NCBI RefSeq assembly: GCF_947503705.1
Contig: NZ_CANNES010000001.1
Location: forward strand, 1-64,000
Reading direction: 5' to 3'
Source: an uncultured Tateyamaria sp.
GTDB lineage: Bacteria > Pseudomonadota > Alphaproteobacteria > Rhodobacterales > Rhodobacteraceae
Length of the DNA stretch: 64,000 nt
The position numbers and the translations under genes were made by a program. This document shows, piece by piece, positions 59,762 through 62,116 of this stretch (the first letter of the stretch is position 1; each line of letters starts with the position of its first letter). Below the pieces are notes generated by a model. That model saw nothing but the letters and a program-made list of their open reading frames with translations. It made no database searches and had not been told where the DNA came from.

Positions 59762-61029
59762 TCGCCCTGCACCCGCTCGATATTTGCGCCCACGCCTGAC
59801 AGCTTGCGCACCACATGTTCGTATCCGCGATCCAGATGGTAGACGCGCGACACCCGGGTTTCACCCTCGGCAGCAAGACCCGCAAGGATCAGGCTGACGC
59901 TGGCGCGCAAATCCGTCGCCATCACCGGCGCACCTTTGAGCTTTTCGACACCGGTCACAGTGGCCGTTCCACCATGCACGTCAATCTGCGCACCCATACG
60001 GATCAGTTCGGGGGCATGCATGAACCGATTCTCAAAGATTTTCTCTTCCAGCACAGAGGTGCCATCGGCGGTGCACAAAAGTGCCATCATCTGCGCCTGC
60101 AAATCGGTAGGAAAGCCGGGGAAAGGCTCGGTCGTGACGTCCACGGCATGGATGCGACCGTTTTTGCGCGAAACCTTCAGGCCTTTGTCGGTCTCGGTTA
60201 CCGAGATGCCCGCAGCATCCAGCTTTTCACAGAAGGCACCCACCAGATCGATGCGTCCGCCCAAAAGCTCCACTTCGCCGCCGCACATCGCAGGGGCCAG
60301 CATATAGGTGCCCAATTCAATCCGGTCAGTCACTACGCGGTGGGTCGCACCGTGCAGGTGATCCACGCCTTGAATGGTGATTTCGCTGGTGCCATCCCCC
60401 TCGATCTGTGCGCCCATGGCGCGCAGGCAGGTGGCCAAATCCACGATCTCGGGTTCGCGGGCCGCGTTCTTGATCACAGTTGTGCCCTTGGCGAGGGTCG
60501 CGGCCATCAGGATGTTTTCGGTTGCGCCAACGCTGGCAAAGGGAAATTCGATCACGGCGCCCTTCAGCTTGCCGCCCGCAGCCTTGGCATGCAGATAGCC
60601 ATCGCGCAGATCAATCTCCGCCCCCATCTGGGCCAAACCGTCGGTGTGAATATCCATGGGGCGCGCACCAATAGCGCAGCCACCGGGCAAGGACACTTCC
60701 GCATGCCCCTCGCGGGCGAGCAAAGGACCCAGAACGAGGTTTGAGGCGCGCATCTTGCGCACGATATCGTATTCGGCGCGGGTATTGATCGCCCCGTGGC
60801 ACGACATGGCAATGACCTGTCCATCCTGCATCGACGTCACCTCGGCCCCAAGAGAGCGCAAAAGCGCAGTCATGGTGCGGATGTCCGATAGGCGCGGCGC
60901 GTTGGTCAGCGTCAGCGGCTCGTCGCTCAGCAAGGTGGCCGGCATCAAGGCCAGACACGCGTTCTTGGCCCCTGCAATCGGGATTTGCCCGTTCAGCGGC
61001 CCGCCGCCCCGTACCAGAATGCTATCCAT
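59758..61029 (-). CDS. murA: UDP-N-acetylglucosamine 1-carboxyvinyltransferase
   Basis: 423 aa, first committed step of peptidoglycan synthesis. N-terminal [20 protein letters not shown] and the catalytic loop [15 protein letters not shown] with C118, the residue that fosfomycin alkylates, so it should be fosfomycin-sensitive. The ATG at 61029 lies 8 bp inside the small gene upstream. Confidence 0.97.
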
Positions 61030-61171
61030 CGTCCTGCTCCTCGGTTTTTTCCGCTGCGTTACGCGCCTTGGCCTGTGCCTTGCGCCGCGCCAGATTGAAC
61101 TTGAGCGCCGCCTTGAGGCGCGCATCCCGGTCATCTGCCGTCTTGTTTTTGGGGGCGGATTTGTCTGTCAT
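61022..61171 (-). CDS. Small basic protein upstream of murA
   Basis: 49 aa, starting [20 protein letters not shown], highly charged and probably helical in the middle ([20 protein letters not shown]). It ends 8 bp inside murA. Similar short charged proteins precede murA in related bacteria. The longer frame upstream runs through the tRNA gene and is rejected. Function unknown. Confidence 0.7.
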
Positions 61172-61255
61172 GGGGTCTCTGTATCGCAGGGGCGCGGGGG
61201 CGTCCAGAATGGGGTTGCAGGCGCGGGCGATTGTCGCTAATGACCCGCCCACGGC

Positions 61256-61330
61256 GCTGTGGTAGCTCAGTGGTAGAGCACACCCTTGGTAAGGGTGAGG
61301 TCGAGAGTTCAATCCTCTCTCACAGCACCA
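61256..61330 (+). tRNA. tRNA-Thr (GGT anticodon)
   Basis: 75 nt including an encoded CCA. The acceptor stem GCTGTGG pairs with TCACAGC, the D-arm is GCTCAGTGGTAGAGC, and the anticodon stem CACCC/GGGTG frames TTGGTAA with anticodon GGT. The T-arm is GAGAG-TTCAATC-CTCTC. All stems fit. It reads ACC and ACT codons. Its last 29 bases are repeated downstream twice. Confidence 0.95.
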
Positions 61331-61612
61331 TCTGTTTCCCTTCCCATACAGATGTTGCACCCAGCCCTACCGCACGGTCTCGACTGACGCGCAGCCTGCA
61401 GGGCCACGCTGAGTGCGAGAGTTCAATCCTCTCTCACAGCACCATCTGTTTCCCTTCCCATACAGATGTCGCACCCAGCCCTACCGCACGGTCTCGACTG
61501 ACGCGCAGCCTGCAGGGCCACGCTGAGTGCGAGAGTTCAATCCTCTCTCACAGCACCATCTGTTTCCCTTCCCATACAGATGTCGCACCCAGCCCTGTCG
61601 CACGGTCTGGAC
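61302..61612 (+). repeat. 114-bp tandem repeat containing the tRNA-Thr 3' end
   Basis: Unit starts are at 61302, 61416 and 61530. Each begins with the T-arm, 3' acceptor strand and CCA of the tRNA (29 bases). CATCTGT...ACAGATG, a small hairpin that may terminate transcription, then a 60-bp filler follow. Units 1 and 2 differ at one base (TTGC for TCGC at about 61355). Unit 3 departs after about 61596. Only the first unit belongs to a whole tRNA. The near-identity implies recent duplication. Confidence 0.9.
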
Positions 61613-61666
61613 GGAGCCACGAACCCAGTCGCGATGCCTTGCGTTGAGTTCATCGTCTGAAAGGCT

Positions 61667-62116
61667 TCACAGAGGTACTGACAGCCCAACCTTTACCTGG
61701 TCGACCACGACATTCGTGTGAAATCGCCTGATGTTGGGGTTCTCGGTAAAGACGCGCCGGGTGAACTGTTCATAGCTGGCCATATCCCGGGCCATAACGA
61801 CCAAAATAAAGTCGGTGTGCCCAGTGACGTAGTAGCACTGCTGCACCTCTTCGAGCTTGAGCATGGAGCGCCGGAACTCGTCCAGCAAATCCACACGCTC
61901 GCGTTCCAGTTCGACCTCGACGACAAAGGTTATCAAGGCGACGTGCCTGGTGTCCACAACGGCGATCTCTTTGCCGATGACACCCGTTTCGCGCAATATC
62001 TGGACGCGTCTTTGCGCAGAGGACCGTGATACGCCCACGCGCGCGCCCAAATCGTCCGAGGACAGCCGCGCATTTTGCTGAAGTTCGCGCAGAATCGCGC
62101 GATCCGTCTCATCCAT
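61667..62116 (-). CDS. Lrp/AsnC-family transcriptional regulator
   Basis: 149 aa. Helix-turn-helix at about 3-50 (SSDDLGARVGVSRSSAQRRV), then the RAM ligand-binding domain (CYYVTGHTDFILVVMARDMA). The ATG at 62116 gives the usual MDETDRAILRELQQNARLS start. It is divergent from the fold-IV transaminase gene, 130 bp away, and so probably regulates it in answer to an amino acid or amine. Confidence 0.92.
   Translation of the reverse strand: MDETDRAILRELQQNARLSSDDLGARVGVSRSSAQRRVQILRETGVIGKEIAVVDTRHVALITFVVEVELERERVDLLDEFRRSMLKLEEVQQCYYVTGHTDFILVVMARDMASYEQFTRRVFTENPNIRRFHTNVVVDQVKVGLSVPL

Follow-up and report, generated by a model that had tools for sequence, protein, structure and literature searches.

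A tRNA-tail-adapted palindromic repeat, in tandem behind tRNA-Thr and other tRNA genes of Tateyamaria, that may be maintained by recombination

Tandem repeats at the 3′ side of a bacterial tRNA gene are familiar from Escherichia coli, where the units behind the tRNA of the tyrT/tyrV region each close with a duplicate of the tRNA's 3′ terminus, CCA included. These are the 178-bp repeats that go by the names RttR and rtT RNA and that Rfam lists as RtT (RF00391); the RNA is a stable small RNA set free from the tRNA transcript. A role of these repeats in termination or processing, strengthened by tandem copies, has reportedly been proposed, and to our knowledge the tyrT tail repeats have so far been an oddity of one locus. 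Two other systems are related in appearance to the locus described here. REP elements are short dispersed palindromic hairpins with a mismatch and with a 5′ tetranucleotide (GTAG/GGAG) beside the hairpin, and their transposases are the RAYT proteins, while the attachment sites of tyrosine integrases at tRNA genes present themselves as a direct repeat of the tRNA 3′ end. Searches of an open-access library turned up no title on repeats of the kind that we describe.

The locus lies in a window of 64,000 nucleotides at the start of a contig of an uncultured Tateyamaria sp. (NZ_CANNES010000001.1), with the tRNA and all repeat units on the plus strand. A tRNA-Thr(GGT) gene with encoded CCA (61256–61330; called by ARAGORN and matched by Rfam RF00005 at 69.3 bits) is followed by two complete units, 61331–61444 and 61445–61558, which were delimited with TRF and by unit-to-unit comparison and agree in 113 of 114 bases. 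A partial third unit (61559–61612; 51 of 54 bases as in unit 2) holds a spacer and a damaged left arm and is without a tail copy. Each complete unit consists of a spacer of approximately 45 bases after the CCA, a palindrome (61378–61420 in unit 1 and 61492–61534 in unit 2) and a copy of about positions 48–76 of the tRNA (61416–61444 and 61530–61558), which in both units equals the local tRNA in 29 of 29 bases. The palindrome of unit 1 runs from a left arm, TCTCG, and the triplet ACT through an inner hairpin with a C-A mismatch to AGT and a right arm, CGAGA, the latter being the 5′ strand of the T-stem of the tail copy. Both palindromes are matched by two covariance models of the core: R1, whose outer helix is offset by a single column and which served for detection only, and R2, in which the offset is corrected. 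For unit 1 the scores are 54.1 bits (R1, 61373–61416) and 55.3 bits (R2, 61375–61422).

In good agreement with a sequence-only reading of this stretch, which had noticed that the tRNA-Thr tail recurs nearly unchanged with a period of 114, TRF reports a tandem repeat at 61302–61612 with that period (2.7 copies, 97% match, score 594), and the 28-mer tail of the tRNA at 61303–61330 returns without change at 61417–61444 and 61531–61558. The GCTG that the same reading placed at 61408–61411 and 61522–61525 is indeed found there; it falls within a block, GCTGAGTG, that is common to units behind other tRNAs. The array is situated between the 3′ ends of the tRNA-Thr gene and a convergent gene. Judging by eye from the neighbouring frames, we take the upstream neighbour to be a murA-like gene and the downstream one to be Lrp-like, both on the minus strand. 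When 61000–62000 was searched against Rfam at E-values up to 5, three matches were returned, namely the tRNA and, below their gathering scores, Plastid-ycf2 and YrlA. A 138-codon open frame (61231–61647, plus strand) spans the whole array and, since 114 is divisible by three, encodes a repeated peptide; the frame is probably incidental, periods elsewhere including 113 and 116.

The same layout recurs behind five kinds of tRNA. A genus-wide DNA search led to further matching places in the genome of the window itself, where units stand behind tRNA-Met(CAT), tRNA-Val(TAC) and tRNA-Val(CAC), and one orphan copy has no tRNA; the tRNA-Val(CAC) array was added by a model search and the other arrays of this genome by reading the DNA matches. 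A census of the genome counts arrays behind 4 of 37 tRNA genes, tRNA-Thr(GGT) and the three just named, one of the 38 genes called by ARAGORN having been dropped, with its first 60 bases those of another gene. A fifth apparent array turned out to be an ordinary tandem of tRNA-Asp genes. The fifth kind of tRNA with an array is tRNA-Ala(GGC), in Tateyamaria relatives; the tRNA-Ala(GGC) of the window's genome is followed by a left-arm remnant only.

Across the genus, R1 matched 16 of 20 genomes (E-values up to 0.05). Sixty matches fell in the loci that we read, and 47 of the 49 that we tabulated lie behind a tRNA; the remaining two are L072, which starts at a contig end, and L031, a true orphan. 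The 11 untabulated matches comprise ten that are partial or are second hairpins (including L075) and one of full length, L076. Both L075 and L076 are without a tRNA, and with L076 counted the proportion becomes 47 of 50. Outside the genus the layout is present in three genera: behind Thr with a decayed tail copy in G071, behind both Val genes in G089 and behind Thr in G124. Matches of R2 in G024 (five) and G050 (one) were left out of the member counts. The family-wide model searches ran over 40 genomes and scored 21 or up to 146 of thousands of first-look candidates, and absence from their results is weak evidence. Matches to the exact core pattern came from seven named contigs, five of them Tateyamaria; the two outside the genus (Akkermansia and a Nitrospirae bin) resemble, by eye, chance matches inside coding sequence. 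Among 295 genomes of the family, three contain the exact pattern of the Thr version, including two from the window's own genus, and none contains its reversed control.

The number of units differs from locus to locus. With a tail copy defined by at least 20 of 28 bases, the 19 tRNA-Thr(GGT) loci of the genus hold none in eight cases, one in six and two in five (one further Thr locus, in which no tRNA was called, was left out), and at L009 and L010 all or part of the palindrome is kept with zero tail copies. At least one tail copy follows tRNA-Val(TAC) at 8 of 20 loci, with none at the other 12, and 3 of the 8 tRNA-Val(CAC) genes that fall within those same stretches have one. Some species carry a second, longer type of unit (187 bases) with a double hairpin behind tRNA-Thr, tRNA-Met and tRNA-Ala. 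Its hairpins at L078, L063, L016 and L018 read, by eye, CCCCTCTCGCGCATC...GATACGCTGCCGGGGCGACGCGC...ACGCTGG, and its tail copy begins at the T-loop and not at position 48.

From the CCA to the palindrome the spacer measures 38–50 bases at 36 loci, and 43–50 in 35 of them, with a sequence that has widely diverged; this near-constant length despite divergence hints at selection on the spacing or on the transcript. Read as its reverse complement, the left arm gives the 5′ strand of the T-stem in the local tRNA: GAGA (Thr) is faced by an arm TCTC, GACA (Thr in G071) by TGTC, AGCG (Ala) by CGCT, GGGA (Met and Val TAC) by GCCC and AGGA (Val CAC) by GCCT. For these five T-stem kinds, represented by consensus 4-mers that were read off the tabulated units by hand, 18 of 20 arm bases fit the T-stem; the mean of the 120 pairings is 9.6, and the true pairing alone reaches 18. 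Since for Met and both Val a 6-base anti-T-stem match on its own is reached by 4–8 of 36 foreign flanks (for Thr by 0 of 36), the case for matching between arm and T-stem rests on its conserved position and on the comparison between kinds. As a general trait, an anti-T-stem was not seen in the tRNA flanks of the window's genome.

The column that adjoins the arm covaries as well (U-A 35, C-G 9, G-C 4, other 4) although its right side is not a tRNA copy, which shows that the arm's partner is the tail copy and not the upstream tRNA. The tail copy begins at about position 48, or 46 in the Val type, and ends at 76. Its mismatch to the local tRNA is lowest for the T-stem 5′ strand (5%), rises through the T-stem 3′ strand (7%), the T-loop (8%) and the acceptor strand (11%), and is highest at positions 73–76 (16%). 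These rates, like the one-piece folds described below, cover 41 units, end units included; the other six of the 47 units linked to a tRNA, whose type-1 tail is too scant to score, are in neither set.

Pairing within the palindrome was assessed on two alignments. A2 comprises 40 hand-picked units found with R1 and aligned with MAFFT, and A3 comprises 59 model matches (54 distinct) fitted to the structure, an alignment that leans towards the model. Over the 16-pair structure, cells changed on both sides number 105 in A2 as compared with 36.5 after shuffling, and 140 in A3 as compared with 49.9, a value that 0 of 500 shuffles reach; slid controls of A3 give at most 32. Two measures that the covariation tool rates as less sensitive to kinship stay near the shuffles. 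Pairs changed on both sides number 11 versus 9.6 in A3 (reached by 39/500 shuffles) and 10 versus 9.4 in A2 (250/500), and further pair types 26 versus 24.7 in A3 (153/500) and 22 versus 20.5 in A2 (142/500); these measures do exceed the slid controls, which in A3 are at most 7 and at most 20. At the inner C-A mismatch all 40 units have the C and no fewer than 90% the A, and because the mismatch is conserved, simple correction of the palindrome cannot be the whole story.

G-U pairs are rare in the palindrome, accounting for 15 of 802 cells as against 104 non-pairs, 39 of which sit on one column pair; the acceptor stems and T-stems of the genome's own tRNAs contain 33 G-U pairs against 7 other non-Watson-Crick pairs. 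Stems rich in G+C, and the decay of end units, may account for part of this scarcity of G-U pairs. When palindrome and tail are folded together as one RNA, the T-arm is predicted in 25 of 41 units, left-arm pairing in 9 and neither in 7, and both Thr units of the window fold with the copied T-arm. If the palindrome and the minihelix are instead compared as separate pieces of unequal length, the palindrome is favoured in 45 of 47 units, a comparison that carries a length bias and that the one-piece fold reverses. Because the outer arms form in only 9 of the 41 units, an RNA fold leaves the matching of the arms unexplained. On the grounds of the rare G-U pairs and the preferred T-arm fold, we infer that the inverted repeat is kept as DNA, through template switching or as a DNA hairpin, and not as an RNA helix.

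The inner hairpin also forms a dispersed family of its own. Its exact pattern has 27 matches in 14 of the 20 genus genomes, 0–4 per genome (reversed control, 0), and for 22 of the 27 there is no tRNA within 200 bases upstream. Many of these dispersed hairpins are, by eye, of a two-hairpin form; their intergenic position was likewise judged by eye, with three of the 27 resembling coding sequence. Two of the matches have surroundings that are alike; one of this pair follows tRNA-Ile and tRNA-Ala, in what is probably an rRNA operon. In the window's genome, the dispersed double hairpin of L189 (G000:C3:136824-136847), a locus in which no tRNA was found, stands just before a terminator-like hairpin, and at L188 (G018:C1:1018346-1018475) two dispersed double hairpins lie 87 and 190 bases after tRNA-Tyr(GTA).

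Two units of the window's genome bear on how such repeats may come to stand at different loci. In the Val(TAC) unit, the Met unit's spacer and core are joined to a Val tail. The orphan unit L031 (G000:C10:12542-12587) has a spacer, core and tail of the Met type with no tRNA upstream, and over 119 bases it shares 95% identity with the Met unit and 92% with the Val(TAC) unit. The orphan meets coding sequence at CCACCA. In two relatives this place reads CACCA, and the stretches of these relatives that were compared contain no counterpart of the orphan's right flank, as though the orphan marked the junction of a rearrangement. The hybrid Val(TAC) unit and the orphan junction would both be explained if short stretches in common had served for conversion or template switching.

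With moderate confidence, we favour reading the array as a palindromic repeat in tandem that is adapted to the tRNA tail and maintained by recombination. The palindrome is a composite, its left arm mirroring the 5′ strand of the adjacent tRNA's T-stem, its inside a REP-like hairpin and its right arm made up of the first bases of the tail copy. Units would multiply by unequal exchange between the tRNA tail and a tail copy, and conversion with the tRNA would keep the tail copies alike. The left arm would track the right arm through quasi-palindrome template switching or through selection for a DNA hairpin. Inner parts, for their part, would move between tRNA loci by conversion at short shared stretches, CCACCA at one end and GGGAGTTC at the other. 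In the transcript the repeat probably forms the tRNA's 3′ trailer, which is cut off at the CCA; on this reading, consequences for transcript ends would come only in second place.

Putting the transcript end first gives the alternative that survives best, in which the C-rich spacer and the hairpin constitute a termination or processing module of tRNA transcripts, Rho-dependent or cut by RNase, that tandem copies would strengthen. It is in keeping with this that the palindrome stands 38–50 bases from the CCA at 36 loci, that the Thr array of the window abuts a convergent gene and that the E. coli unit is annotated as the small RNA RttR. The composition of the spacers (33% C and 23% G, with C above G in 28 of 36) points the same way, but array-free flanks are C-richer too (27% versus 22% G, with C above G in 24 of 33), and Rho-site composition, being shared by them, is a weak discriminator. 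Similarly, no intrinsic terminator was seen behind the four array tRNAs of the genome, but by the same criterion 24 of 33 array-free flanks also lack one, and a discriminator that stands at 0 of 4 against 9 of 33 is uninformative. Furthermore, the tail copy is missing at 8 of 19 Thr and 12 of 20 Val(TAC) loci, and G-U pairs are few. Judged from the sequence, the repeat may play a part at the ends of tRNA transcripts; a functional trailer as the explanation of the array we regard as unlikely, though well worth keeping in view.

A different RNA-based account goes back to the sequence-only reading, in which GCTG stands in for the 5′ acceptor strand of a minihelix-like fold and the resulting tRNA-like RNAs bind tRNA enzymes or compete for them. 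The fold as such is available: the T-arm, acceptor strand and CCA are retained in most copies, and the copied T-arm is the usual prediction (in 25 of 41 units, the two of the window included), although any copy of that tRNA stretch would be expected to give a T-arm. The proposed acceptor strand fares less well, with the 5′ flank pairing best with its own acceptor strand in only two of six groups (36 of the 47 units used). In addition, of 12 Ala copies that were scored, three depart from the tRNA at three T-loop positions apiece. That RNAs of this type would explain the arrays seems to us improbable.

Plain slippage, which would have duplicated the tRNA tail and its flank without further meaning, had been put forward as well. 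The near-perfect tandem units and the variable copy number, from 0 to 2 tail copies over the 19 Thr loci of the genus, are what slippage would leave behind, but it does not provide for one palindrome shared behind five tRNA kinds with an arm matched to each T-stem, nor for the dispersed relatives of the hairpin, and as a full account it is very improbable.

The sequence-only reading had finally offered repeated integration sites, and tRNA-Thr(GGT) does appear to serve as an attachment site in relatives. Among eight viral contigs with the exact 28-mer tail (L204–L211), seven carry the 3′ part of the tRNA without its 5′ half, sharing it from the anticodon loop to the CCA, and one has a whole tRNA-Thr; a tyrosine-integrase-like frame also follows tRNA-Thr in L017 (by eye). 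One of the viral contigs, L209, has a frame that by eye resembles a tyrosine integrase. We give very little credence to tail copies as attachment scars of phages or islands that use tRNA-Thr, given that phage identity starts at the anticodon loop and extends over at least 45 bases whereas the array copies start near position 48, that the exact palindrome patterns have 0 matches in the viral contigs and 61331–61660 has none in phage and plasmid records, and that unrelated integrases would not be expected to produce one core behind five tRNA kinds. Reading by eye, we saw no integrase in the frames beside the Thr array, and the units are too small to hold one.

How, then, does a recombination-maintained palindromic repeat compare with the described systems? 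Attachment sites share with it the direct repeat of a tRNA 3′ end, but differ in where the copies start, which is near position 48 here and at the anticodon loop in the viral contigs with tRNA-Thr, and the units, at about 110–120 bases (187 in the longer type), are too short for a gene set. REP elements are closer in that they too are short dispersed hairpins with a conserved mismatch that lie mostly away from tRNA genes. Here, however, exact-pattern copies are few (0–4 per genome), and a subset is tied to tRNA tails with adapted arms. A search for the enzyme that might move the repeat found no gene for Y1_Tnp (PF01797) in the window's genome, in contrast to REP/RAYT systems, and a match over the cut-off in 3 of the 20 genus genomes.

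The tyrV/tyrT region of E. coli MG1655 (L121) offers the nearest likeness. It contains three exact periods of 178 with a 19-base tail copy, and its first unit includes a 10-base inverted copy of its own tail (GGGGAAGGAT; 2 of 2000 shuffles reach that length), an inverted tail copy being visible by eye in the other two units as well; the feature table shown for the region makes no mention of it. Directly before the tail the E. coli unit has GCGCTGAGT. The two systems differ in that the E. coli inverted copy comes from the 3′ side of the tail whereas the Tateyamaria arm comes from the T-stem 5′ strand, and in that one tRNA locus was looked at in E. coli as against five tRNA kinds here. R2 does not match the E. 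coli repeats (best score 6.1 bits), nor does the Rfam RtT model match within 61000–62000 at E-values up to 5, and on this sequence evidence the tyrT/rtT repeats would be an analogue and not a member of the family. Tentatively, one might go further and propose a class of small parasites or accessory elements of bacterial tRNA genes, in which a palindrome settles on tRNA 3′ ends, acquires a duplicate of the host tRNA from T-arm to acceptor end and remodels one of its arms to suit whichever tRNA it follows, and of which the Tateyamaria family and E. coli tyrT/rtT would be two separate or distantly related cases. With the layout present behind five tRNA kinds in many species of one genus, and with an arm that tracks the T-stem, the origin and purpose of such repeats become testable by comparison, which could address how the arm is re-tailored, whether selection acts on a DNA hairpin or on RNA, and whether the arrays affect the ends of tRNA transcripts.
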